64,000 bases of DNA from Prolixibacteraceae bacterium (GTDB lineage: Bacteria > Bacteroidota > Bacteroidia > Bacteroidales > Prolixibacteraceae): contig JAQUIJ010000009.1 in NCBI GenBank assembly GCA_028683385.1, positions 1-64,000 of the forward strand. Reading direction: 5' to 3'. The notes beneath the pieces are model-generated. The model was not told where the DNA came from. It searched no databases and saw only the letters and a list, made by a program, of their open reading frames with translations. This document shows positions 4,594-33,035 of the stretch, one piece after another; position 1 is the first letter of the stretch; every line of letters starts with the position of its first letter. Both the position numbers and the translations under genes were made by a program.

Positions 4594-6207
4594 TTATGGC
4601 AAAAGATCTTTCGTCTTTAATTTTGAGGGTGAAAAAATCCCAATAACACCATTAAACCCAACGCTCATTACGATATTAAAGAAGAATGCAAGGAATCCTA
4701 AAAGTAGCAGGCTCCCGCTTATTGCGGCCAAAACCATATACGTGTTAAATTCACCATGGATATACAGTGAACGGCGCAACATACCATGGAGTCCTGCCAT
4801 GCCCATAAACGCACCCATTCCAACACCACCAAGCAACTGTGCCCAGAAATGAAAATTGGCTAACTTTTGACTGTAAAGTTTAGCACCGTTTGTGAGAATA
4901 GGGAAGAGGAAGTAAATAGCCGAATATAGAGTCATGGTTAGGCCAACAAGAATTGCAACATGCACATGAGGGCCTATGACCCATTGCGTATTGTGTAAAA
5001 TCCTGTTCAGTCCAATATCAGCCTGCATAATTCCCGCAGGAACTGCAAGAGCAAAACCGAGTAAACCGCCAAGTAAAAATTTAAGAGGATTTGTCATCTT
5101 CAGCGGGCGAGCACTCCATAAGGTATAAAGGGTTATGAAAAATGCAAGTCCTTGAGTGATCAATTCGAATGCAGTTACCATCTCGCCTGATACTACCTTT
5201 AATATTCCTGGCTGAGCCTGGTCGCTCAACAAGTGATGCGACCATACAGTCCAGGATACCACGAGTTCCACCAGTAGGGCAATACGGGCAACGTTTTCCA
5301 TATAAAGTTTTTTACCGGTTATGAGTGTTGCCAGCAGATACCATGTTCCTGCCACAAATATCAATACAAGACCATCGGCAACAAGGTCAAGTCCCCACCA
5401 GAACCAGTTTTTATACAACAAGGCATCTATTGCTGATGATTTGAGGTCAAAACCTAGTAAAGCAGCCACCATATAAACAAGTATCAGTACGCCGGTGAAT
5501 AGTATTATTGCCGCATTAAAGGCCACATCAACAGTTCCCTGGGCAACAGCAGCCACAGGAAGCGATACGAGTTGTTCTGTTTTTTTCTTTCTGAAGAGAT
5601 TGCTGAAAGCAGTAATTCCCAATGCTGATTTCAATATTTCCTTGCTGGGTTGTTGTGCCCATCCATCCGGAGTATAGGTAAGTGTTTTATAGATATTGAT
5701 CACAAAAAAGATTGTGCCAAGCATCACTAAAGCAATGCCAGTGATAAAAAATGTACCGCCTATCACACTGAATTGAGTAAAATCTGCAGGTAATGGCCAG
5801 TACAGAGTGTATAATGGTGCATAATGTGTTATAAATCCGGAGAACCAAAATACGAATGTACCTACTCCGATAAGTACAAGTGTCCAGTTACCTAATGTGA
5901 TGCTCCACAAGGGTTTTTTCATTAGGAAAGGGACAAGAAATAAGAATGCCCCGAACACAATTGAATAAGTGGAGCCAAATATCCCAACCAAAGGATGTGC
6001 AGTCATAATAGCAAAAAACTGTTCGGAAGGGATTGACGGAATTGGTTGAACTTCGTATAGTCGCATAATCATGCCTTCGATTACAGCAAAAGCATAATAA
6101 ACTAATCCAACAACTACGAAGCGAAGTGTCATTTTTTGCATTGGCGTCATGCTGTCTGGCTTAAATACGCCTTCTTCTCCATGTAAGAATGTTTGTATAA
6201 AGTTCAT
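4594..6207 (-). CDS. Heme-copper oxidase-superfamily subunit I, probable non-canonical NO reductase
   Basis: The 537-residue protein has about 13 hydrophobic segments and aligns to B-type (ba3) oxidase subunit I. Heme ligands are present: H71 in helix II, and H414/H416 in a helix X motif of the type H-N-T-x-W-V-x-G-x-H-x-H. The CuB pair H324-H325 is also present. In helix VI the B-type pattern F-W-W-T-G-H-P-I-V-Y is replaced by F-W-W-G-L-D-L-V-A-D, which puts D274 where the third CuB histidine should be and D278 where the cross-linked tyrosine should be. Loss of that tyrosine is typical of NO reductases rather than O2 reductases. I recall that the gNOR-type family was described with Asp replacing a CuB histidine, but that is memory, not a search. 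The gene follows subunit II by 27 bases. Confidence 0.75.
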   Translation of the reverse strand: MNFIQTFLHGEEGVFKPDSMTPMQKMTLRFVVVGLVYYAFAVIEGMIMRLYEVQPIPSIPSEQFFAIMTAHPLVGIFGSTYSIVFGAFLFLVPFLMKKPLWSITLGNWTLVLIGVGTFVFWFSGFITHYAPLYTLYWPLPADFTQFSVIGGTFFITGIALVMLGTIFFVINIYKTLTYTPDGWAQQPSKEILKSALGITAFSNLFRKKKTEQLVSLPVAAVAQGTVDVAFNAAIILFTGVLILVYMVAALLGFDLKSSAIDALLYKNWFWWGLDLVADGLVLIFVAGTWYLLATLITGKKLYMENVARIALLVELVVSWTVWSHHLLSDQAQPGILKVVSGEMVTAFELITQGLAFFITLYTLWSARPLKMTNPLKFLLGGLLGFALAVPAGIMQADIGLNRILHNTQWVIGPHVHVAILVGLTMTLYSAIYFLFPILTNGAKLYSQKLANFHFWAQLLGGVGMGAFMGMAGLHGMLRRSLYIHGEFNTYMVLAAISGSLLLLGFLAFFFNIVMSVGFNGVIGIFSPSKLKTKDLLP

Positions 6208-6852: not shown

Positions 6853-7278
6853 CTATATATTTTTAATTGGATCGATCTGATACTTTTCTTTGAGATCAGC
6901 AAGCGTTGTATTTGTAAGAGTCTCAACCATTTTTGAACGTGCTTCCATCCATGGTTCATGCATAATCCATGGTTTATCAACAATACAGCAGCTGAAGCCA
7001 AGAATACAGGTACATATTGCATCAATTCCTTCCAGTTTATTGATCACAAGTGCCAGATTTATTTCCTTCAAATCCTTGGCAAAGACAAAACCACCATTTC
7101 TTACTGACGAACTTTTGAGAAATCCATGCTTCGATAAATCGGTTAACAATCTTCGGAGGTATCGACAAGGAATATTTAATTGCTGGTGAAGGTATTCGGC
7201 AGAATACATATTCTCATTACGGGTTGCCATAAACCCCAGAATTGTAAGTGCATACTCAGTGGTTTTATTAAGAATCAT
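6853..7278 (-). CDS. Rrf2 family regulator heading the NO reductase operon (copy 1)
   Basis: The 141-residue protein has the Rrf2 winged helix: K-T-T-E-Y-A-L-T-I-L at the N-terminus and Y-L-R-R-L-L recognition helix near residues 40-45, then the glycine-rich N-G-G-F wing. The family includes NsrR and IscR, which sense NO or cluster status through an iron-sulphur cluster held by three cysteines. Here the region has C89, C91, C97 and C98, but residue 104 is Trp, where copy 2 (24400-24834) has Cys. Apart from this the two proteins are nearly identical. It is the first gene of an operon with the NO reductase subunits, and its promoter lies between two inverted-repeat arms at 7286-7329, so autorepression is likely. 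Confidence 0.85.
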   Translation of the reverse strand: MILNKTTEYALTILGFMATRNENMYSAEYLHQQLNIPCRYLRRLLTDLSKHGFLKSSSVRNGGFVFAKDLKEINLALVINKLEGIDAICTCILGFSCCIVDKPWIMHEPWMEARSKMVETLTNTTLADLKEKYQIDPIKNI

Positions 7279-7285
7279 ATATTAC

Positions 7286-7329
7286 TACCTTTTTATAGTA
7301 TTTAATTCAAAGTTAAAAATAAAAAGGTA
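7286..7329 (-). promoter_or_regulatory. Promoter enclosed by Rrf2-type inverted repeat (NO reductase operon)
   Basis: TACCTTTTTAT (7286-7296) and ATAAAAAGGTA (7319-7329) form a perfect 11-bp inverted repeat with a 22-base spacer. Inside the spacer the minus strand reads TAACTTTG (7315-7308), a good -7 box. The same arrangement, with one base changed in the spacer, occurs at 24842-24885 before the second Rrf2 gene. Confidence 0.75.
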
Positions 7330-12731: not shown

Positions 12732-13277
12732 CTATTCCAGGTATTTTTTCTCAAATTTTTCCAATAGTGCATGAAGTTTTTCATGTTTTCCTTCACCAAC
12801 TACTTTTTCTTCATGCTCTTCAAACTTTGCTAAAAGTTCGGTTTGCGTTTCTTCCGGTAAACGTTGGTCACCCATCATGAATAGGATATTGTTTTCTTTT
12901 TCAATATGATTTCTCATTAACGAAACGTATGATGAAGCGGCATCTGCGAAAGCATTTAGATCCGCGTTAAGTCCCGAAACGCTATCTTTCATTTGCCGGA
13001 TATTGAGTCTGCCCTGTTCATGTTCCTGGAGCATAACACCAATAGGACCGCCATTTCCGGGGATGCCTGCTTTTTGAAGAGCAGGAAAGTAATAAATTTC
13101 TTCCTTCCCATGGTGGCACTTATCGGCAAATAGTATAAGAAAATCTACCATTTCTTTCAAATCATTTGCTTCTGCATTTTCATGCCGTTGAATTTTTGAT
13201 GCTATTTTCTCTAATACATTTAAAGCTATTTTTACGGCTTCATGTTCATGTTTTAAATCTTCACTTGCTCTTTTCAT
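12732..13277 (-). CDS. Hemerythrin HHE domain protein
   Basis: The 181-residue protein is a four-helix bundle with the diiron pattern: H10/H12 in an H-E-H motif, H-H-G-K-E-E in the second helix, E-H-E-Q in the third and R-N-H-I-E-K-E-N in the fourth. Hemerythrin-like proteins bind O2 or NO and include iron donors for repair of nitrosatively damaged clusters (YtfE/RIC), although this one lacks the N-terminal ScdA_N domain of RIC. It is the last gene of an operon with the AhpD-like and DUF6448 genes (gap 42). Its place between the NO reductase and nitrate reductase operons suggests NO or oxygen handling, which is an inference. Confidence 0.85.
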   Translation of the reverse strand: MKRASEDLKHEHEAVKIALNVLEKIASKIQRHENAEANDLKEMVDFLILFADKCHHGKEEIYYFPALQKAGIPGNGGPIGVMLQEHEQGRLNIRQMKDSVSGLNADLNAFADAASSYVSLMRNHIEKENNILFMMGDQRLPEETQTELLAKFEEHEEKVVGEGKHEKLHALLEKFEKKYLE

Positions 13278-13319
13278 AATTATATCTCCTATTATTACTT
13301 AATAACGCACTACCTTAAT

Positions 13320-14102
13320 TTATTTTTTCTTTAAGTATAATGCGCCAAAGAGTCCTGCCGTAATGAAAAAGAACCCTGACAAAATCCATGGGATATGGGA
13401 GGTATGTCCGGAGGCTTCGGTATGCGCTTCACTGCTGTGAATACCAGAGGCAGTATTTCCTTCACTTCCATGGCTATGGGCATCGTGTCCTTCTACTTCC
13501 CCTTCGGCAAAGTGGAAAAATTGGACATAAGCTTCAATATATTCTCTGCCAGCTTCAACATTGTTGACATTAAAATTCCGGAGTGACATTACTTTTTCGA
13601 AACGTTTTGTCAATTCAGGCATATTGTCTTTTGGTACAAGGTCTTTGAGGGGAGAAAGATTTCCCAACTCAATTGATTTATCAGCGGCAAGTATTTTCTC
13701 ATCAATGGGCGTACCTGATGGTTTAACCCCGGTAAAAGGTACTCCTTCGCCAGTGCGGTGAACCCTAACCAGTGTCTCGAAAAAGTATTTATCCGAAAGT
13801 TCCATTGCTTCAGAGCTAAGTACTCTAACTTTCATACTGAGGTTAAAGGCTTCTTTTATCTCCGCTTCATCCTGAGAGCGAACCCATTTAAGAACATAAT
13901 TTACGTTTGTTTGAGCGATAGCTTTTTGGGCATCTGCAATTACGGGTCCATCCATGGTATCGCAATGCGCAAATGTTACCTTGGAAGAAAGAAATAAAAC
14001 TGAAAATAAAAGTAGGGATAAAAAACTGAATTTAATTCTGATATTGATTCTCTTTTGATGCAATGAATTTTCTTTTGACTGAATTTTTGCACTCGTTTTC
14101 AT
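13320..14102 (-). CDS. DUF6448 family protein with His-rich linker and C-terminal membrane helix
   Basis: The 260-residue protein has an N-terminal hydrophobic export segment (about 24-45) ending at A-H-C-D-T-M-D-G-P-V, the hallmark start of DUF6448 proteins, which keep a Cys and His at the mature N-terminus. A helical domain follows, then a His/Glu/Gly-rich linker near residues 203-235, and a C-terminal membrane helix and K-K-K tail (about 238-260). The His-rich linker and the H-C-D start suggest metal binding in the periplasm, but no function is known. It lies 14 bases after the AhpD-like gene and 42 before the hemerythrin gene. Confidence 0.7.
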   Translation of the reverse strand: MKTSAKIQSKENSLHQKRINIRIKFSFLSLLLFSVLFLSSKVTFAHCDTMDGPVIADAQKAIAQTNVNYVLKWVRSQDEAEIKEAFNLSMKVRVLSSEAMELSDKYFFETLVRVHRTGEGVPFTGVKPSGTPIDEKILAADKSIELGNLSPLKDLVPKDNMPELTKRFEKVMSLRNFNVNNVEAGREYIEAYVQFFHFAEGEVEGHDAHSHGSEGNTASGIHSSEAHTEASGHTSHIPWILSGFFFITAGLFGALYLKKK

Positions 14103-14116
14103 GATTTTTATTTTTA

Positions 14117-14494
14117 TTAGTTGTTAATACTATTTATTAATGGATTGATTGTAATAGCCTCAAATTCCTGAAGGACGGCAAAAGCTTTGGAGCCGTATAC
14201 TACCGATGGGCCACCTCCCATATAAATTGCAGTACCTATTGTTTCAATAATTTCATCATGGGTGGCACCTTTTTCAACTGCATCGTGAATATGCATTGTG
14301 ATGCATCCCTCGCACTGTGTATTTATCGAGATACCCAAAGCAATGAGTTCTTTAAATTTTGATTTTAAAGCTCCATCCTTTGACCCGATTTGATGTACTT
14401 TCGAAAATGCAGTCATCATTTCAGGATTTTCTTTTGCGTAACTACCAATCATGTTGCGGGTATGCTCATAAATGGTTGAATAATTTTTTGTCAT
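14117..14494 (-). CDS. Carboxymuconolactone decarboxylase / AhpD-like protein
   Basis: The 125-residue protein carries the AhpD-type motif C61-E-G-C64-x3-H68, followed by A-V-E-K-G-A-T-H-D-E-I-I-E. The family includes alkylhydroperoxidase D and gamma-carboxymuconolactone decarboxylase; the C-x2-C-x3-H form points to a redox-active thiol pair rather than the decarboxylase. It leads the operon with DUF6448 and hemerythrin, which points to redox or nitrosative stress. A -7 box (TAATTTTG, minus strand 14554-14547) and three upstream repeats suggest control by the adjacent AraC regulator. Confidence 0.85.
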   Translation of the reverse strand: MTKNYSTIYEHTRNMIGSYAKENPEMMTAFSKVHQIGSKDGALKSKFKELIALGISINTQCEGCITMHIHDAVEKGATHDEIIETIGTAIYMGGGPSVVYGSKAFAVLQEFEAITINPLINSINN

Positions 14495-16422: not shown

Positions 16423-17118
16423 TCATATCGTTAGTTTTGTAAATCCGCGTCTCACCATTTGATATCCCGATCTGAAAAAATAAGCAATCGGCATTACAAA
16501 CATGTGCATGAGTTTCGTGTAGGGGAAAATCATAAAAATGAAAAGCCCGGTTATTATGTGCAATTTGTATATTATGCTGTGACCTACGATTACGGCCCCT
16601 GCATCTGGTTGAAAAGTAATGACCTTTTGCGCCCATTCACCCAACGCTGTATAGTTTTCAACGGAAGATCCGGCAGAAATGGCTACAGAGATCAACCCCA
16701 GTCCCATTTCAAATAAAAGCAGAACGATCAGAAGAATATCTGCGGGTGTACTATTAATTTTGATCCGCTGATCCTTCAGTCGCCTGACGAGAAGTATAGT
16801 TACTCCGACCACGGCAGCAGTGCCAAAAACAGACCCCATTATAACTGCCAATATCTTTTTTGTTGCAGTGGTCATAAACAGGTGATAAAAATGTTCAGGT
16901 GTAAAAAGGCCCGTAAAGTGTCCGATAAAAACCAGGATAATGCCATAATGAAACAGATTGCCTCCCCATTGCTGGCCTTTCTTCGAGAGAAACTGGCTCG
17001 ATTCAGCTTGTAACGATTTTGATGTTTTTACAATACGTGTGATGACACCAAACCAGAACAGAGTCATGGCGATATGTGGCAAATAGGTGAAAAACAGGTT
17101 GTTGATATAAGTATTCAT
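16423..17118 (-). CDS. narI: Respiratory nitrate reductase gamma subunit (cytochrome b)
   Basis: The 231-residue protein has five membrane helices and matches NarI. The heme b ligands fall at H57 and H67 in the second helix and H187 and H205 in the last two, almost exactly the E. coli positions (56, 66, 187, 205). It takes electrons from quinol at the periplasmic side and passes them through two hemes to NarH. It follows narJ by five bases and is the last gene of the nar operon. The C-terminus ends after R-R-G-F-T-K-L without a long tail. Confidence 0.95.
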   Translation of the reverse strand: MNTYINNLFFTYLPHIAMTLFWFGVITRIVKTSKSLQAESSQFLSKKGQQWGGNLFHYGIILVFIGHFTGLFTPEHFYHLFMTTATKKILAVIMGSVFGTAAVVGVTILLVRRLKDQRIKINSTPADILLIVLLLFEMGLGLISVAISAGSSVENYTALGEWAQKVITFQPDAGAVIVGHSIIYKLHIITGLFIFMIFPYTKLMHMFVMPIAYFFRSGYQMVRRGFTKLTI

Positions 17119-17123
17119 AATCG

Positions 17124-17753
17124 TTATGATTTACAATTTAAACAAGCATTTATGTCTCCAAATGTTACAGGTTCTTCTTCATAAGCTTCATCAATACTGA
17201 TTTCAGGTATTTCGGATACCATTTTTTCAATCCGGGCCTCGGCAGGTTTGCGGGCAGATAATTGTATGATGGCAGATAAAAGATATTTATATGGATTATC
17301 CTTATCTTCCAGCTTTTTGTGGATAAATCCTACAATATCAATGATCTCCGACAAATAATCCATCGCTTTTTCTTGCGTTTGTATGGCAAGGAACTCAAGA
17401 AATACGGGTAGATAATCAGGTAATTCCGGACGGTTTATCTGCAATCCATTTTCAGTGTAAAGGTAGATCAGGTCAACCATGGCCTGACCACGGTCTTTTG
17501 AATCACCATGTACATGTTCAAACAGATAAAGAGAAACCGAACGCGAGTAATCGAACAGTTGAACATAGTGCTCTTGCCAGAATCTCAGTGGCTTTTTTGC
17601 AAAAAAGTCAACAAAAATGTCTATTCCGGAAATGGCTTCGGCGTTCAACAAATTCTCCTCCTTAAGCAAAGAATTAACCTGAGGTAAAAAGTCATAAATT
17701 TCCTCGTCGGGATAAGTAATCAACAGTGAAATTATTTTATAAGTTTTCAGCAT
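17124..17753 (-). CDS. narJ: Nitrate reductase assembly chaperone
   Basis: From the ATG at 17753 (a TTG lies five codons upstream) the protein has about 209 residues. It is an all-helical NarJ/TorD family protein with Y-P-D-E-E near residue 15, Y-V-Q-L-F-D-Y-S-R-S-V-S-L-Y-L-F-E-H-V-H-G near residue 60, and E-L-P-D-Y-L-P-V-F-L-E-F near residue 107, all typical of NarJ. It binds NarG in the cytoplasm during molybdenum cofactor and cluster insertion. It begins one base after the narH stop, so the two are translationally linked. The C-terminus ends in C-L-N-C-K-S. Confidence 0.93.
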   Translation of the reverse strand: MLKTYKIISLLITYPDEEIYDFLPQVNSLLKEENLLNAEAISGIDIFVDFFAKKPLRFWQEHYVQLFDYSRSVSLYLFEHVHGDSKDRGQAMVDLIYLYTENGLQINRPELPDYLPVFLEFLAIQTQEKAMDYLSEIIDIVGFIHKKLEDKDNPYKYLLSAIIQLSARKPAEARIEKMVSEIPEISIDEAYEEEPVTFGDINACLNCKS

Positions 17754-17754
17754 C

Positions 17755-19245
17755 TTACATTCCTCCAAACAAGTTTTTCAAACGATTTTCCATATTACCG
17801 CATCCTTCTCCATCACTGAACCCACACTCAGCCTTATCGCCAAAGGCATCAAAAGCATATTCCTTATGTGATACGGGAATTACAAAGCGGTCTTCGTAAT
17901 CGGCAATGGCCATGTAGCGGTACATCTCTTCAACCATCGCAGGCGTCAGGCCTGTACCAGATAATACCCCATTATCTTCACTGTTTTCAACAGTTTTACT
18001 CCTCATGAACGCACGCATGGCCAACATCTTTACCAAGGCTTCCCTTACCGGCTTTTCGTCGCCTGCAGTGAACATATTGGCTAGATATTTAACAGGTATA
18101 CGCAGCATATCTACATCCGGAATAATGCCATTGAAACCCAGTTTCCCACTTTCAACTTCTTCCTGGATAGGCGATAAAGGCGGAGTATACCAAACCATCG
18201 GCAAGGTGCGGTATTCGGGATGAAGAGGGAAAGCCACTTTCCATTCTACAGCCATTTTGTAAACCGGCGATTTTTGAGCCGCATCAATAAAATTATCGGG
18301 AATTCCCTGTTTGCGGGCTTCTGCTATAATTTCAGGATTATGGGGATCAAGGAAAATATCGAGATGGGATTGATACAAATCAACCGGATTTTCGGATGAG
18401 GCCGATTCCATGATTTTTTCGGCATCGTAAAGCATTACACCGATATACCTTATTCTTCCCACGCAGGTTTCACTACAAATGGTTGGTTCACCGTTTTCAA
18501 TCTTCGGATAACACAGCGTGCATTTCTCAGAACGTTTGGTTTTCCAGTTGAAATAGATTTTTTTGTATGGACAGGCACTGACGCACTGGCGCCATCCCCG
18601 GCAACGATCCTGGTCGATGAGAACAATGCCATCATCTTCGCGCTTGTAAATGGCACCGGAAGGGCAGGCAGCCACACAGGTCGGATTGAGGCAATGTTCG
18701 CACAGGCGCGGCAAATACATCATGAAGGCGTTCTCGAACTTGCTGTATATCTCTTTGTCAATGTCATCAAAATTCTTCTCTTTACTGCGCTCTTTAAATG
18801 CGCCGCCCAGGTTGTCTTCCCAGTTTGGGCCCTTCTCAATCTTCTCCATCGGAAGTCCGGTAATCATTGAATGAGGCCGGGCTGTAGGTGGAGTCGCAAA
18901 TTTTCCAGATGAATGTAAAATGCTGTAGTTGAAGGTGAACGGTTCGTAATAGTCATCGATCTGAGGTAAGTACGGATTTGAAAAAATATTTTTCATGATA
19001 CCTGCCTTATTCCCCATACGCGGACGAAGCTTCGATTTATCGAGTATCCAGCCACCCTTCCATTTATCCTGATTTTCCCAGTCGGTGGGATAACCCTGTC
19101 CTGGTTTAGTTTCAACATTATTAAACCAGGCGTATTCCATCCCTTTGCGGGTTGTCCACACGTTTTTACAGGTAACCGAACAAGTATGACAGCCAATGCA
19201 TTTGTCGAGGTTTAATACCATTGCAATTTGAGCCTGTATTTTCAT
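17755..19245 (-). CDS. narH: Respiratory nitrate reductase beta subunit (Fe-S)
   Basis: The 496-residue protein holds the four Cys groups of NarH: C16-x2-C19-x2-C22-x3-C26, then C-E-H-C-L-N-P-T-C-V-A-A-C-P, then C-R-G-W-R-Q-C with Trp in place of one Cys, which marks the [3Fe-4S] centre, and a last C-T-L-C group. It carries electrons from NarI to NarG on the cytoplasmic side. Length and motifs are canonical. It lies 22 bases after narG. Confidence 0.96.
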   Translation of the reverse strand: MKIQAQIAMVLNLDKCIGCHTCSVTCKNVWTTRKGMEYAWFNNVETKPGQGYPTDWENQDKWKGGWILDKSKLRPRMGNKAGIMKNIFSNPYLPQIDDYYEPFTFNYSILHSSGKFATPPTARPHSMITGLPMEKIEKGPNWEDNLGGAFKERSKEKNFDDIDKEIYSKFENAFMMYLPRLCEHCLNPTCVAACPSGAIYKREDDGIVLIDQDRCRGWRQCVSACPYKKIYFNWKTKRSEKCTLCYPKIENGEPTICSETCVGRIRYIGVMLYDAEKIMESASSENPVDLYQSHLDIFLDPHNPEIIAEARKQGIPDNFIDAAQKSPVYKMAVEWKVAFPLHPEYRTLPMVWYTPPLSPIQEEVESGKLGFNGIIPDVDMLRIPVKYLANMFTAGDEKPVREALVKMLAMRAFMRSKTVENSEDNGVLSGTGLTPAMVEEMYRYMAIADYEDRFVIPVSHKEYAFDAFGDKAECGFSDGEGCGNMENRLKNLFGGM

Positions 19246-19267
19246 AATCTGATGAGTATTAAACGTG

Positions 19268-22200
19268 TTAATCCTTTAGTTCTTCGTCTTTCCATTCCAC
19301 TTTCTTCAGTTTGCGGACGACCACAAACTCGTCACGGTTGGATCCGATGGTTCCGTAATAATTAAATCCATAAGACAATTGAGCATATCCGCCGATCATG
19401 TGTGTTGGCTTCAGGCACAACCGTTCCACTGAGTTATGCACACCGCCGCGATTACCTGTTAACTGACTAACGGGCATGTTAACAGTTCGTTCCTGATTGT
19501 GATACATGATAAGAGCACCGACAGGAATCCGCTGTGATACAATCAACCGGGCAATGGATGCTCCGTTGCTGTTAAAGACTTCAATCCAGTCATTGTCTTT
19601 AAGTCCAATGCTGGCGGCATCTGTTTCGCTCATCCAGGCTACCGGACCTCCCCGGCCAAGGGTAAGCATTAATAAATTGTCAGACCACGAAGAATGGATG
19701 GTCCATTTATTATGTGGTGTCATAATGTTTATGACCATGTACTCGTCCTCCTTGTCCACTTTACCCAATACTTCAAGAATTGATTTGGTATTGATGGGGG
19801 GTTTGTAAGTGACCATATTTTCACCAAAGGCAATCATCCACGGATGATCCTGATAAAGGGTTTGCCGTCCGGTGAGTGTGCGCCACGGGATCAGTTCATG
19901 CACATTGGTATAACCGGCATTGTACGATACCTTTTCGGAATCGATGCCGCTCCAGATAGGCGAAGTGATAATCTTTCGCGGTTGTGAAAGCAGATCGTGA
20001 TAGCGTATTTTCTCGTCTTCCCTGGGTATGGCCAGGTGGGTATGTTTGCGTCCGGTAATTGCTTCCAATGCACTCCATGCTTTAACGGCAACAGCTCCAT
20101 TGGTTTCAGGAGCCAGTGAAAGAATAACCTCAGCAGCCTGAATGTCCGTTACAATCTTCGGAAGACCTTTGGTTTCACCTTCTTCACTTTTGGTATTATT
20201 AAGGAGTGTAAGCAGGTCTATTTCTGCCTCTGTGTTCCAGTTAATTCCTTTACCGCCATTGCCCAGAGTCTTCATCAGTGGCCCAAGACTGGTGAACCGA
20301 TTGTAGGTTTCCGGATAATTCCGTTTCAGAGTTACGATTTTGGAGAAATTGATTCCAGGCTTTATTTCTGAACCCGCATTTTTCCAGTCATTGGCGTCGG
20401 TGGTTTCCGATAACTCCATCGGCGTATCATGTTGAAGCGGAAGCAGCACGACATCTGTTTCGTTGTCCAGATGCCCTTTTGCCACGATTGAAAATTTTTC
20501 TGCCAGTCCTTTAAATATATCCCAATCTGTTCGGGATTCCCATACAGGATCAACTGCCCGTGAAAATGGATGAATAAATGGGTGCATATCGCTGGTACTC
20601 AGATCGTTTTTTTCATACCATGAAGCGGTCGGAAGCAAAATGTCTGAATGCAATCCGGTCGTTGACATTCTGAAATCGAGGGTCACCAATAGATCGAGCT
20701 TTCCTTCCGGGGCATCGTCGTGCCATTTGACTTCGGAAGGTAAAGTATGCCCAAGTTCTTTGAGGTCATTTCCCTGAACACTGTTTTGAGCCCCCAGCAG
20801 GTGTTTCATGAAGTATTCCATCCCTTTGGCACTTGATCCCAGCAAATTTGACCGCCATACGAAAAGGTTACGTGGAAAGTTGGCCGGATTATCCGGATCT
20901 TCGGAGGCCAAAGTCAGTTTCCCGCTTTTTAATTGCGAAACCACATATTCTTCTGAAGTCACACCTGCAGATTCTGCTTCTTTGGCAATTGTTAACGGAT
21001 TTTTGCTCAGTTGCGGAGCACTCGGTAACCAACCCATGCGCTCTGCGCGAACATTGCAATCGATGAGTGAAAGATTTTCCCATTCCGACTTATCGGTAAG
21101 AGGAGAAAGCAATTCGTTTAGTTTCACTTTCTCATACCTCCATTGGTCGGTGTGCATATACATGAATGAGGTGGTATTCATTTGCCTTGGCGGACGGTTC
21201 CAGTCGAGGGCAAATGCCAGTGGTAACCAACCTGTCTGAGGCCTGAGTTTTTCCTGACCAACGTAATGAGACCAACCACCGCCCGACTGGCCGACACAAC
21301 CACAAAATACAAGCATGTTGATAGCGCTCCGGTAAATCATATCGGTATGATACCAGTGGTTAACTCCGGCTCCTATAATAATCATCGATTTTCCTTCAGT
21401 TGCAGCAGCATTTTCAGCGAATTGCCTGGCTGTCGAAATGATATGTTGAGCCGGAACACCAGTTATTTTCTCCTGCCATTTTGGAGTAAACGGAAGGTCT
21501 TCATCATAATTTTCAGCCGCATTCGGATCATCAAATCCCCTGTCAATTCCATAGTTGGCCACCATTAGGTCAAATACGGTGCAGATATAAATTTCACCCT
21601 GAATGGTTTTGATTTTCCTGACTGGTACTTTACGTTCAATAATATCGTCATGGTCGCTTGCTGAAAAATGTTCGTGTTTAAAAGTAGTACCGCCAAAATA
21701 GGGGAACTGCACATGAATTACCTCGTCATGCTGTTCGATCATAGAAAGTTTCGGCAAAATATCAGCACCCGTTTTACTATCCTTTAGCTCTAAGTTCCAT
21801 TTTTGCTTTTTCTCCCATCGCGATCCGATGGTTCCGTTTGGTACCACATAGTTGCCCGACAGTTCGTCGAGTAAAACAGGTTTCCATTCCGGTTTTTCAC
21901 CTGCATCGGGCATATTTTTAAGATCGCTGGCTCTGAGAAGAGTTCCACTCATATATTTTCTGTCCTTTTTCTCAATTTTCACCAGAAATGGTAAATCAGA
22001 ATATTGACGGGCATATTTCTCGAAATACGGGGTTTTGTTCTTTATGTAGAATTCTTTTAGAATCACATGTCCCATTGCCATTCCCAAAGCAGCATCGGTA
22101 CCTTGTTTGGGTTTCATCCACAAATCGGCAAACTTAACGGCATCGCTGTAATCAGGGGCAATGACTACCGATTTTGTCCCTTTATAGCGAACTTGCGTGT

Positions 22201-22999
22201 AGAAAGGTGAATCAGGTGTGCGTGTAAGCGGAACATTCGATCCCCAGAGCATCAGGAATGATGAGTTATACCAATCGGCACTTTCAGGAACATCGGTTTG
22301 CTCGCCCCATGTTTGTGGTGATGCCGGTGGCAGATCGCAATAGAAATCATAGAAACTGAGCACCGTTCCCCCTATCAGGCTAAGATAACGCGTGCCAGCC
22401 GCATAAGAAACCATCGACATGGCAGGAATAGGGGAGAACCCTGCAAGACGGTCGGGTCCGTATGTTTTTATGGTATATATATTTGCAGCTGCAATGATTT
22501 CATTTACTTCATCCCATTCGGCACGAATAAAACCTCCCAGTCCACGTGCTGCTTTATACTGCTTTGAAATTACCGGGTCGCTGACTACTGCTTCCCAGGC
22601 TTTTACCGGGTCGGAGAGGCGGCCTTTGGCTTCCCGGTATGCAGTCAGCAATTCTCCGCGGATCATGGGATATTTAACCCGGTTGGCGCTGTAGAGATAC
22701 CATGAATAACTGGCGCCCCGAGGACAACCGCGCGGTTCGTGATTGGGCATTCCCGGCCGTGTACGTGGATAGTCGGTTTGCTGGGTTTCCCAGGTCACAA
22801 GCCCATTCTTTACAAATATTTTCCACGAGCAGGATCCTGTACAGTTTACTCCATGAGTGGAGCGAACAACCTTATCGTGCTGCCAGCGATTCCGGTACAT
22901 ACGCTCCCAATCGCGACTTTCACCGGTTATTGCAATGTGTTTATCCGCAGTTTTTGTTACCGAGTTACTGAAATAGAATAATTTATTTAATAAGTCCAT
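19268..22999 (-). CDS. narG: Respiratory nitrate reductase alpha subunit (Mo-bis-MGD)
   Basis: The 1243-residue protein is a full-length NarG. The [4Fe-4S] FS0 site is at H49, C53, C57 and C92, and D222, the molybdenum ligand, lies in the C-D-L-P-P-A-S-P-Q-T-W-G segment; all match E. coli numbering. There is no twin-arginine signal, so the active site faces the cytoplasm, as in the membrane-bound NarGHI type. It reduces nitrate to nitrite using quinol electrons and so builds proton motive force. It lies 54 bases after narK. Transcription probably starts upstream of the Rrf2 gene at about 24860. Confidence 0.97.
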   Translation of the reverse strand: MDLLNKLFYFSNSVTKTADKHIAITGESRDWERMYRNRWQHDKVVRSTHGVNCTGSCSWKIFVKNGLVTWETQQTDYPRTRPGMPNHEPRGCPRGASYSWYLYSANRVKYPMIRGELLTAYREAKGRLSDPVKAWEAVVSDPVISKQYKAARGLGGFIRAEWDEVNEIIAAANIYTIKTYGPDRLAGFSPIPAMSMVSYAAGTRYLSLIGGTVLSFYDFYCDLPPASPQTWGEQTDVPESADWYNSSFLMLWGSNVPLTRTPDSPFYTQVRYKGTKSVVIAPDYSDAVKFADLWMKPKQGTDAALGMAMGHVILKEFYIKNKTPYFEKYARQYSDLPFLVKIEKKDRKYMSGTLLRASDLKNMPDAGEKPEWKPVLLDELSGNYVVPNGTIGSRWEKKQKWNLELKDSKTGADILPKLSMIEQHDEVIHVQFPYFGGTTFKHEHFSASDHDDIIERKVPVRKIKTIQGEIYICTVFDLMVANYGIDRGFDDPNAAENYDEDLPFTPKWQEKITGVPAQHIISTARQFAENAAATEGKSMIIIGAGVNHWYHTDMIYRSAINMLVFCGCVGQSGGGWSHYVGQEKLRPQTGWLPLAFALDWNRPPRQMNTTSFMYMHTDQWRYEKVKLNELLSPLTDKSEWENLSLIDCNVRAERMGWLPSAPQLSKNPLTIAKEAESAGVTSEEYVVSQLKSGKLTLASEDPDNPANFPRNLFVWRSNLLGSSAKGMEYFMKHLLGAQNSVQGNDLKELGHTLPSEVKWHDDAPEGKLDLLVTLDFRMSTTGLHSDILLPTASWYEKNDLSTSDMHPFIHPFSRAVDPVWESRTDWDIFKGLAEKFSIVAKGHLDNETDVVLLPLQHDTPMELSETTDANDWKNAGSEIKPGINFSKIVTLKRNYPETYNRFTSLGPLMKTLGNGGKGINWNTEAEIDLLTLLNNTKSEEGETKGLPKIVTDIQAAEVILSLAPETNGAVAVKAWSALEAITGRKHTHLAIPREDEKIRYHDLLSQPRKIITSPIWSGIDSEKVSYNAGYTNVHELIPWRTLTGRQTLYQDHPWMIAFGENMVTYKPPINTKSILEVLGKVDKEDEYMVINIMTPHNKWTIHSSWSDNLLMLTLGRGGPVAWMSETDAASIGLKDNDWIEVFNSNGASIARLIVSQRIPVGALIMYHNQERTVNMPVSQLTGNRGGVHNSVERLCLKPTHMIGGYAQLSYGFNYYGTIGSNRDEFVVVRKLKKVEWKDEELKD

Positions 23000-23053
23000 G
23001 GTGACCGTTTTAATATTTTAAAGTTTGCATATCCCGATAACGACTGAAATCTC

Positions 23054-24343
23054 TCATAATACTTTTTGATTCTGATGTTGTCTCTTTAATACCGCAACGA
23101 TAGCGATACTAATGATTGCCAAAATGATAAAAACAACAAATCCGAGTGCATATCCCGTTTTTCCATAAGAACTGGCAATTGCCCCCATCATGGGAGGAAT
23201 GGCAAACCCGCCGAATGCCCCCAAACCTCCAATCCAACCAGAAGCTCCACCTACTGCTTTAGGCACATAATCGGGAACCAGTTTAAAAACGGCAGCATTA
23301 TTAATACCCATGCCTACAGCAAGAAGTAAAGCCGATAAAAATCCAATAGTCACTGATTGTGTAAATGAAAGTATGATTGAGGCAACCAGAACTATTATTA
23401 ATGAGATAAGACTAACCTTTTCTCCTCCTGATTTATCGGCAAATTTTCCTCCATAGACTCTTAATACTGAAGCAGTAAGAGAAAAAATGGCAGTAAGAAT
23501 CCCTGCTTTAATCACGGAAAAATCGTGTAACTGGCTCCAGTAGATAGGAAACCAGGCGGTTAAACCAATAAACCCACCGAAAGTAGTAAAATACAGTGCC
23601 ACAAGCGCCCAGGTATTCCTGACTTTTGCTGAATTAATCAGGCTGTCTTTTACATTACCGGACGGAAACATTTCCTGACCTAATTCCGTTGCCATTCTCC
23701 GGCTTTCTTCATCAGTTTTACCAGCTTTCCTGAATTGAAAATAATAGGTATTCTGGCCAACGAAGGCATAAACAATGGTTCCGATTACCAGAAAAAGGAA
23801 CCATGCAAAATAGGCTGAAATAAAACCAAAACTTTGAAGATAAAACGGAAGAATGAGTGAGAAAACGCCAGGAGCCAAGTTCCCAAGTCCGGCATAAGTC
23901 CCTAATGCCATACCTTGTTTTTTCTTTGGGAACCAGTAAGATGTTTGTGCTATTCCTACTGAAAAGGTAGCGATCCCGGCTCCACTCAGAAATCCAAGAA
24001 AAAGTATGAGACCGTACAAACCATGCATTTTTTCGGGATAGGAGAGGTTTAGAAGCATCGTAACGCCACCCAATCCAATCACAGATAATATCAGCAGAAT
24101 CAGAAATGGCTTTTTGCCGCCCGTGGTATCGACCCAGGCCCCAAAGGGGATACGAAGCAAAGACCCTGAAAGGGCTGGAATGGCAACCAAAAGGCCCATC
24201 ATTGCTGGAGTCAGATCCATGGCTTCTTTAAATTTTATAGCTGTCGGGCCATAGAGTGAGACGGCAGCGAAGCCAAAAAAGAAACCCAGTGTGGTTCCAA
24301 GTAGCCCACGGCCTGGAGTACCCTTAACTTTAATTTGATTCAT
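23054..24343 (-). CDS. narK: Nitrate/nitrite transporter of the NNP (NarK) family
   Basis: The 429-residue protein has twelve predicted membrane helices of the major facilitator fold. A NNP signature is visible as G-L-G-N-L-A-P-G-V-F near residue 150, with a second glycine-rich one (G-M-G-I-N-N-A-A-V-F) near residue 350. It imports nitrate, exports nitrite, or both. It lies between the second Rrf2 gene (gap 56) and narG (gap 54), so uptake and reduction are made together. Only one narK is present; whether it is a proton symporter (NarK1) or an antiporter (NarK2) cannot be decided by eye. Confidence 0.93.
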   Translation of the reverse strand: MNQIKVKGTPGRGLLGTTLGFFFGFAAVSLYGPTAIKFKEAMDLTPAMMGLLVAIPALSGSLLRIPFGAWVDTTGGKKPFLILLILSVIGLGGVTMLLNLSYPEKMHGLYGLILFLGFLSGAGIATFSVGIAQTSYWFPKKKQGMALGTYAGLGNLAPGVFSLILPFYLQSFGFISAYFAWFLFLVIGTIVYAFVGQNTYYFQFRKAGKTDEESRRMATELGQEMFPSGNVKDSLINSAKVRNTWALVALYFTTFGGFIGLTAWFPIYWSQLHDFSVIKAGILTAIFSLTASVLRVYGGKFADKSGGEKVSLISLIIVLVASIILSFTQSVTIGFLSALLLAVGMGINNAAVFKLVPDYVPKAVGGASGWIGGLGAFGGFAIPPMMGAIASSYGKTGYALGFVVFIILAIISIAIVAVLKRQHQNQKVL

Positions 24344-24399
24344 AGTTAATATTTATGGTGGATTTTAGTTAGACAAAGAGATGTTTTGATTAACTGTGT

Positions 24400-24834
24400 T
24401 TATATCAACTTAAGATTTTTCAAAAGATCAATCTGATACTTTTCTTTGAGATCAGCAAGTGTTGTATTTGTAAGAGTCTCGACCATTTTTGAACGTGCTT
24501 CCATCCATGGTTCATGCATAATACATGGTTTATCAACGATACAGCAGCTGAAGCCAAGAATACAGGTACACATAGCATCAATTCCTTCCATTTTATTGAT
24601 CACAAGAGCCAGATTTATTTCTTTCAAATCCATGGCAAAAACAAATCCACCATTTCGCCCTGATGAACTTTTAAGAAATCCATGCTTCGATAAATCGGTT
24701 AACAAGCTTCGGAGGTATCGACGAGGAATATTTAATTGCTGGTGAAGGTATTCTGCAGAATACATATTCTCATTACGGGTTGCCATATATCCAAGAATAG
24801 TAAGTGCATACTCAGTGGTTTTATTAAGAATCAT
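24400..24834 (-). CDS. Rrf2 family regulator heading the nar operon (copy 2)
   Basis: The 144-residue protein is nearly identical to the Rrf2 protein at 6853-7278; the differences include R38 for C38, M for I or K at a few places, and a different C-terminal end. Its cysteines are C89, C91, C97, C98 and C104; C98 and C104 fall at the numbering of two IscR cluster ligands. The third Cys is Trp in copy 1. A cluster-binding NO or redox sensor of the NsrR/IscR kind is therefore more plausible here than in copy 1. It heads the narKGHJI operon and shares its promoter/operator almost base for base with copy 1. Confidence 0.86.
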   Translation of the reverse strand: MILNKTTEYALTILGYMATRNENMYSAEYLHQQLNIPRRYLRSLLTDLSKHGFLKSSSGRNGGFVFAMDLKEINLALVINKMEGIDAMCTCILGFSCCIVDKPCIMHEPWMEARSKMVETLTNTTLADLKEKYQIDLLKNLKLI

Positions 24835-24841
24835 ATTTTAC

Positions 24842-24885
24842 TACCTTTTTATAGTATTTAAATCAAAGTTAAAAATAAAAAGGTA
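24842..24885 (-). promoter_or_regulatory. Promoter enclosed by Rrf2-type inverted repeat (nar operon)
   Basis: TACCTTTTTAT (24842-24852) and ATAAAAAGGTA (24875-24885) flank a 22-base spacer holding TAACTTTG (24871-24864, minus strand). It differs by one base from the copy at 7286-7329. Confidence 0.75.
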
Positions 24886-25058: not shown

Positions 25059-25397
25059 ATGAAAATTATTAAATATCACGATCAAGAAGTAAAAAGTACT
25101 CCTCACCGAATTGATGTAAGGGAGATGTATAACAAAGAATCAGCACAGGCAATGTTAATGGCCTTAAACCCGGGTGAAAGTTTAAAACCGCATAAAACTC
25201 CGGTCGATGTATTTTTCTTTATTGTTGAAGGAACGCCGACCATTCACATTGGTGATGAAAGCGAAGTATGCGAAGCTGATACGCTTATTGAAAGTCCTGC
25301 CGAGATTGTTCACTATATTAGCAATGAATCTGATAATTTAGCCAGGATACTTGTTGTTAAGGCTCCCAGACCGGTTATCCTGACCAGAGTGCTTTAA
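25059..25397 (+). CDS. Small cupin-domain protein
   Basis: The 112-residue protein is one cupin barrel. A partial first motif is seen (L-K-P-H-K-T-P, near residue 47, then F-F-I-V-E-G-T-P-T-I-H-I-G-D) and the second motif has E-I-V-H-Y-I-S-N-E. Only two or three of the usual metal ligands (H49, H75 and H91 or near) are visible, so metal binding is uncertain. Function is unknown; single cupins of this kind often occur with efflux or detoxification genes. It is first in the operon with the TetR at 25458. Confidence 0.75.
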   Translation: MKIIKYHDQEVKSTPHRIDVREMYNKESAQAMLMALNPGESLKPHKTPVDVFFFIVEGTPTIHIGDESEVCEADTLIESPAEIVHYISNESDNLARILVVKAPRPVILTRVL

Positions 25398-32585: not shown

Positions 32586-33035
32586 ATGAATAAAATAATC
32601 ATAATCCTTCAATCATTTTTGGCTATTGTACTGCTGCCTTCATTTAGCATTCAAAAGCAGGAAACTTGCTCATTAACAATTGACGTGAGCGAATTACGAA
32701 ATTCAAATGGTACAGTACTCTTTGCATTGTACAACAGAGAGGATGCATTCCCCGATGAGCATTACAAAAAGTATTTCAAAAAACTCACCGGAAAAATAGT
32801 CAACGGGGCATCATCTGTAACATTCAAAAATCTGCCAGAAGGGAAATATGCGGTAAATGTACTGCACGATGAAGACAATGATGGTAAAATAAAAAAGGGG
32901 ATCATCTTGCCCAAAGAGGGAATAGGTTTTTCAAATTATAAATCTATTGGTTTTTCAAACCGGCCATCATTTACTAAAGCATCTTTTAGTGTGCTGAACG
33001 ACAAAAAGATAAAAGTAAATATTATATACTTGTAA
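32586..33035 (+). CDS. DUF2141 family secreted protein
   Basis: The 149-residue protein has an N-terminal signal peptide of roughly 22 residues and the DUF2141 pattern L-R-N-S-N-G-T-V-L-F-A-L-Y, V-T-F-K-N-L-P-E-G-K-Y-A-V-N-V-L-H-D-E-D-N-D-G-K and G-I-G-F-S-N at the end. It is a small periplasmic or outer-surface beta protein of unknown function. The start lies two bases after the pump stop codon, so it is co-translated with the RND genes. Confidence 0.82.
   Translation: MNKIIIILQSFLAIVLLPSFSIQKQETCSLTIDVSELRNSNGTVLFALYNREDAFPDEHYKKYFKKLTGKIVNGASSVTFKNLPEGKYAVNVLHDEDNDGKIKKGIILPKEGIGFSNYKSIGFSNRPSFTKASFSVLNDKKIKVNIIYL

Follow-up and report, generated by a model that had tools for sequence, protein, structure and literature searches.

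In nitric oxide reductases (NORs) a Glu, Gln, Asp or Asn stands in for the active-site tyrosine of the heme-copper superfamily, and some NOR types have an Asp instead of one of the CuB/FeB histidines (PMC3475470, with reference to Hemp and Gennis 2008 and Sievert et al. 2008). One of the proposed types, gNOR, is listed with a D at the tyrosine position and without a proton channel (Table A4 of PMC8756737, which refers to Sievert et al. 2008 for gNOR). Considering that this reference is cited by both papers, the NOR type with the His-to-Asp replacement is presumably gNOR. Two other papers describe gNOR as quinone-oxidizing and non-electrogenic (PMC8906906) and place it among the NORs that were proposed and have not been characterized biochemically (PMC11388526).

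We have analyzed a stretch of 64,000 nucleotides from a Prolixibacteraceae bacterium (hereafter the window) that contains an operon with features of these enzymes. Judged on its sequence, the operon probably encodes a gNOR, that is a two-subunit, quinol-linked NO reductase of the heme-copper superfamily, where the filing under gNOR follows published descriptions of features. With the gNORs reported for Sulfurimonas, Sulfurovum, Persephonella and Methylomirabilis (norGH) the predicted enzyme has in common the Asp at the tyrosine position, the two subunits including a cupredoxin, the presumed use of quinone, and probably also the Asp in place of one CuB/FeB histidine, a feature tied to gNOR through the shared reference. 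It differs from them in that it resides in another phylum and is led by an Rrf2 gene and a palindrome. The preliminary description of the locus had read the Asp at CuB as a sign of gNOR, and PMC3475470 and PMC8756737 support this reading at the sequence level. A literature search on gNOR in Bacteroidetes gave nothing that looks relevant among the matches listed.

The features of the locus are collected in Table 1. The ORF of subunit I is read from 6207 down to 4594, stop codon included, and encodes 537 aa. It forms a row on the minus strand with the genes of subunit II and the Rrf2 protein, separated by gaps of 27 bases (subunit I/II) and 48 bases (subunit II/Rrf2). The common direction and the size of the gaps suggest that transcription likely runs from Rrf2 through subunit II to subunit I. 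In 76 of 80 loci the subunit II gene lies directly upstream of the subunit I gene; as for the four exceptions, L079 starts at the gene itself, and L057, L058 and L072 possibly contain missed ORFs.

Table 1. Coordinates of the gNOR-like operon and of the nitrate reductase operon in the window
Feature	Position	Strand	Evidence
Subunit I, catalytic	4594..6207	-	Pfam COX1, 183.8 bits
Subunit II, cupredoxin without CuA, 189 aa	6235..6804	-	CoxB 28.7 bits, below cut-off; profile aligned to CuA domains
Rrf2-family regulator leading the operon; Trp for third conserved Cys	6853..7278	-	sequence comparison
Palindrome AATRCTA-N8-TAGYATT, 1 mismatch, likely operator	7281..7302	.	two bases before Rrf2 start codon
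narI	16423..17118	-	Nitrate_red_gam
narJ	17124..17768	-	Nitrate_red_del
narH	17755..19245	-	Nitr_red_bet_C, Fer4_11
narG, nitrate reductase alpha subunit	19268..22999	-	TIGR01580, 2023 bits, cut-off 1084.15
NarK-like nitrate/nitrite transporter	23054..24343	-	TIGR00886, 176 bits, below cut-off 311.7
Second Rrf2 copy, 92% identical, all three Cys	24400..24834	-	sequence comparison
Second palindrome copy, 2 mismatches	24837..24858	.	before second Rrf2

The translation of subunit I has H71, H324-H325, H414 and H416 as well as both Asp residues of D274-L-V-A-D278 exactly where the preliminary description had placed them. The protein thus retains five of the six superfamily histidines, with Asp274 at the position of the helix VI CuB histidine and Asp278 at that of the cross-linked tyrosine. 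From general knowledge of the superfamily we take H71 and H416 to be the ligands of the low-spin heme, H414 that of the high-spin heme, and H324, H325 and probably D274 those of the second metal. Neither the two Asp nor the five His vary among the 90 distinct full-length sequences, the window protein included, and the helix VI stretch reads LDL[IV]AD throughout. This set was obtained from 108 ORF hits, which reduced to 93 distinct proteins, three of which were dropped as not exceeding 450 aa; the conservation alignment counted 91 rows, with the window protein present twice. The invariance implies that the Asp/His pattern is more than chance. It also bears on the notion that the protein is a decayed, inactive paralogue, as the loss of two residues essential to oxidases might suggest: given a site that is constant in 90/90 sequences and strong conservation across many genera, we hold this for practically negligible.

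The position of the two Asp depends on the register of helix VI. The preliminary description counted 50 residues from D274 to the HH pair and 49 in ba3, and both numbers were recovered, the latter for the Thermus enzyme as counted on the alignment; in nine sNOR or sNOR-like sequences the spacing is likewise 49 or 50. In a BLASTP comparison with the genome's own sNOR-like protein, DALLYKNWFWWGLDLVADG pairs without gaps with DALLMKNLTYFFGHTIANE, which equates D274 with H230 and D278 with N234, and hhalign gave the same register for the family profile against the sNOR profile. Within GHPIVY of Thermus ba3, the His and Tyr are in turn matched by the His and Asn of the sNOR profile. Moreover, when seven shifts were scored without gaps, D274 on the helix VI histidine scored best in 16 of 16 comparisons (nine sNOR or sNOR-like, one ba3 variant and six A-type sequences, which are related rows; cbb3 and qNOR were not included). 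With D274 as ligand, Trp270 comes to lie at ligand-4, where a Trp is also found in the examined A-type, cbb3, qNOR and ba3 sequences and a Tyr or Phe in the sNOR-type rows. As counter-evidence, MAFFT E-INS-i and an HMM of the nine sNOR-type sequences slip by one residue, which puts Leu273 on the His and matches Gly272 to the Gly that precedes it. Since the slipped register requires an insertion and a deletion inside a single helix, we hold the ungapped reading to be right. The claim that Asp occupies both the CuB histidine and the tyrosine position is therefore upheld at the level of sequence, by all 16 ungapped comparisons and despite the slip in two methods, and D274 is probably a ligand of the second metal.

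Subunit I was further compared with other members of the superfamily. Thermus ba3, a B-family O2 reductase, shares the FWW of helix VI in register, and its subunit II type recurs among the PDB matches of the window's subunit II; it differs by the His and Tyr where subunit I has Asp and Asp, by the presence of the CuA ligands, and in the K-channel. In ba3 numbering, the K-channel residues Y244, Y248, T312 and T315 correspond to V285, W289, L354 and F357, and S309 to Thr351 (a hand mapping, uncertain in register by one). Four of the five positions are hydrophobic in subunit I, a comparison that covers the ba3 K-channel positions alone; the alignment of helix VIII differs by one residue between BLASTP and MAFFT. 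The sNOR-like enzyme of the same genome is 25% identical over 495 aa and has the stretches DALLxKN and HHLxxDxxQP in common with subunit I. The sNOR-type rows, however, keep the CuB His and have an Asn at +4, and the subunit II of the same-genome enzyme keeps a CuA-type C-x3-C-x3-H-x2-M motif. An Rrf2 gene also adjoins the sNOR of Ruegeria pomeroyi, which differs by an SCO gene annotated beside it; we call this enzyme an sNOR because its residues fit and Table A4 of PMC8756737 lists Silicibacter. In the qNOR of the same genome, too, position +4 is acidic and precedes a Gly (WWVVHLWVEG versus WWGLDLVADG in subunit I). In contrast, cNOR and qNOR have a His at position 0 and a Glu at +4, and this qNOR is a single fused chain of 751 aa; hhalign gave no useful alignment between qNOR and the gNOR-like family.

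Accordingly, several class assignments were discarded for subunit I: sNOR, as the CuB His and the Asn at the tyrosine position are absent; cNOR and qNOR, as it lacks the helix VI His and the Glu at +4; and eNOR, for which PMC8756737 gives a Gln at the tyrosine position that is absent here. The heme-copper O2 reductases of types A and B were rejected as well, for lack of a cross-linkable helix VI Tyr. Membership of the same superfamily and the retained heme ligands would fit an oxygen reductase that can dispense with the cross-linked tyrosine. Nevertheless, we consider such an enzyme very improbable, as the Tyr is missing and the His replaced in 90/90 sequences and the ordinary oxidases of the genome, an aa3-type enzyme (CtaD 649 bits, just below the cut-off; SHPAVY motif) and a cbb3 oxidase, serve O2.

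The profile of the second subunit matched nine PDB entries, each of them a CuA domain or a cytochrome oxidase subunit II, of the ba3 type (that of Thermus) wherever the type is named. COX2 was found in 23 of 24 members (E<=0.1), the window member scoring 17.5 bits, below the cut-off of 22. Of the five CuA ligands, in ba3 numbering, four are lost: H114, C149, C153 and H157 correspond to Tyr122, Ser161, Ser165 and Gly169, whereas M160 is kept as Met172. Both serines are invariant in 77/77 sequences (76 relatives and the window). The loss of the CuA ligands H, C, C and H in a cupredoxin fits the description of gNOR as quinone-oxidizing, and points to quinol as the probable donor.

In a tree of 30 rows, drawn up without B-type O2 reductases and returned with a long-branch warning, the gNOR-like family forms a clade with 100/100 support outside the A-type and sNOR-type rows. 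The family is tight (lowest pairwise identity 72%) and set apart by a wide gap, with a best outside match of 53 bits versus about 1080-1140 for full-length members among 395 genomes. These observations, together with the lack of a reference gNOR in the comparison, would also suit a sister family that reached the Asp/Asp site independently and that is an NO reductase without being a gNOR by descent. We regard this as rather unlikely, considering that the published gNOR features (the Asp, the cupredoxin subunit and the quinone use) fit. Counted against the assignment to gNOR was the presence in the same genome of a qNOR (PDB nitric oxide reductase, 857 bits; locus L003) and of an sNOR-like enzyme with a CuA-type subunit II (locus L005). 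As to their surroundings, the qNOR has next to it a Crp-like gene and a gene for a di-iron protein of iron-sulphur repair (250.3 bits versus a cut-off of 204.7). Beside the sNOR-like enzyme lie two genes that look like SCO by eye, without an NCBIfam match, and a small cupin, of which an 87% identical copy is found at 25059-25397 of the window.

The operon had been proposed to carry its own NO-type regulator. An Rrf2 protein indeed leads it, but an identity with NsrR was rejected: the NsrR model scored 37.6 bits against a cut-off of 182, and the third of the three conserved Cys is a Trp in the window protein (TGG, where L018 has TGT). The second Rrf2 protein of the window has all three Cys and scored 50.7 bits. 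The CX6CX5C motif is found in 47/47 proteins of the Rrf2 cluster, two of which are from genes elsewhere than the operon front. An Rrf2 gene lies at most 1.3 kb upstream in at least 45 of the 75 loci that were testable, i.e. had more than 1250 bases upstream, a lower bound as shadow ORFs mask some genes; L086, for instance, was scored as a miss, yet L013 from the same contig shows the Rrf2 gene.

In most of the Rrf2-led loci the palindrome AATRCTA-N8-TAGYATT is situated one or two bases before the start codon. It was spotted by eye in seven sequences and then tested on 39 other loci versus first-order Markov resamples. At two mismatches or fewer it was present in 20 of the 39 (expected 0.25), and at three or fewer in 28 (expected 2.6), of which 26 end near the start codon; the loci are related and not independent. 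Spaced dyads, when searched for upstream of Rrf2, were no more frequent than in resampled sequences (top count 5, largest control 6), and a scan of the whole window at three mismatches or fewer was at chance level (16 versus 15.4). At two mismatches or fewer the window contains three copies (7281-7302, 24837-24858 and 32630-32651), and the first of these is likely an operator. The third, with two mismatches, may be chance. Just upstream of the palindrome a TAnnTTTG element occurs, which resembles the Bacteroidetes -7 promoter box. The palindrome differs from the NsrR consensus gATGyAT-N5-ATrCATc as given in PMC1274295.

The same pair of regulator and palindrome recurs in the window at 16423-24858, where the second Rrf2 gene leads the NarK-like gene and narGHJI. 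Over 420 bases the two Rrf2 genes share 93% of their DNA sequence, and the 60 bases upstream agree at 54 positions. New here are thus an Rrf2 gene with a palindrome that leads a gNOR-type operon, and the occurrence of this pair before a narK-like gene and narGHJI; an Rrf2 regulon that joins gNOR and nitrate respiration was not found in the literature searched. Since NarG, H, J, I and K had no match in the flanks (up to 5 kb) of the 80 relatives (E<=1e-10, half the query), the pairing of gNOR and nar was seen in the window alone, and it may be recent and local. Elsewhere in the genome a second NarI, 93% identical, lies near a protein of 425 aa that matches COX1 weakly (L006).

The genomic context of the carriers was compared for other steps of denitrification. 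In the window's own genome clade II NosZ, NrfA and NirK gave no match. Clade II NosZ is present in 6 of 25 carriers of the gNOR-like gene versus 21 of 49 non-carriers, and NrfA in 10/25 versus 8/49, where 13 of the 25 carriers came without a completeness value and the non-carriers were chosen by serial number, unmatched. NirK was found in 4 of the 25 carriers, the only genomes searched for it; NirS was found in none, which means little as this search had no positive control. Carriers thus seem seldom complete denitrifiers, which was counted against the assignment to gNOR as well; the absence of NirK from 21/25 and of clade II NosZ from 19/25 suggests NO defence rather than complete denitrification. 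A bacterium that has Nos and two each of Nar and Nor but lacks NirK and NirS is described in PMC4689864. In most carriers, then, NO does not come from the NirK route, which could be taken to favour an enzyme that uses NO otherwise (e.g. by dismutation) or acts on another small substrate. The combination of Rrf2 and nar fits the removal of NO, and we give such alternatives very little weight. Putative NO dismutases are qNOR-like, and Nar makes some NO from nitrite.

Considering these data, we propose that quinol electrons would pass via the low-spin heme (H71/H416) to a binuclear site composed of the high-spin heme (H414) and a second metal on H324, H325 and Asp274, with Asp278 next to this metal, where oxidases have the tyrosine and c/qNOR the Glu. 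There, two NO would be converted to N2O and water. The cupredoxin of subunit II may be structural or aid quinol binding, considering that its CuA site is gone. The Rrf2 protein would act as a repressor on the palindrome at the operon front and keep the operon off until NO releases it, probably via an iron-sulphur cluster. The NO would mainly be a by-product of nitrite produced by NarGHJI, the operon of which has a nearly identical regulator and palindrome. By the sequence features compared, the whole is thus classed as a gNOR in a bacterium that would reduce nitrate. A more speculative proposal, which we regard as possible but on balance doubtful, is that H324, H325, D274 and D278, a set of two His and two carboxylates, bind non-heme iron and not copper, and that gNOR in Bacteroidota is under the control of an Rrf2 regulon to which, in this organism, nitrate respiration belongs too. 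If the iron part were true, gNOR would be one more way to build a binuclear centre for NO reduction, alongside that of c/qNOR, where three His and a Glu hold iron, and that of sNOR, where three His presumably hold copper. For the proposed gNOR class the operon offers a compact target, with 90 sequences of invariant site, a partner subunit, a regulator and a candidate operator.

Among named genome contigs 394 relatives of subunit I were found; the best 80 of these are 75-95% identical to the query, all belong to the gNOR-like clade, and 66 are labelled Bacteroidetes, Bacteroidales or as genera within this group. For the remaining 14 the labels are Ignavibacteria, Melioribacter, Stygiobacter, Chlorobiota, Acidobacteria, Gemmatimonadetes, Spirochaetes or Patescibacteria, and some of these may be due to errors in binning. 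Within the window's phylum 10 of 296 genomes match (E<=1e-20), and 12 of 395 match strongly; both counts comprise the window's own genome, one gene split over two contigs and one fragment. Considering that Pfam and NCBIfam classify the subunit I gene merely as a generic oxidase subunit, a capacity to form N2O may go unnoticed in roughly 3% of the sampled genomes of the phylum (the 10/296). In the phylum of carrier G296 (labelled Acidobacteriota) 4 of 247 genomes match, G296 among them, and in that of carrier G298 (labelled Spirochaetes) 1 of 198 has a strong match, which is G298 itself. Matches to the gNOR-like gene on plasmid sequences were all below 60% identity (in 38 records), and viral contigs gave none. 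A search with the SoxB family returned 30 loci, all with an A-type HPAVY or HPEVY motif. The gene is present in two copies in 3 of 10 genomes entered via loci, where one of the six copies is slightly short and mixed bins are possible.

The surroundings of the operon show some further variation. Genes for a hemerythrin, a DUF6448 protein and a member of the carboxymuconolactone-decarboxylase family lie at 12732-14494 of the window, and among the 80 loci DUF6448 relatives are found near the gNOR-like operon in 9 and a hemerythrin in 4. A small EFPPIK protein is encoded upstream of subunit II in 5 loci. In a cluster of 5 loci (including L059, L063, L066 and L075) the Rrf2 gene upstream of subunit II is replaced by one for a membrane-type protein of 152-154 aa with an SAHTHIILVG-like stretch.
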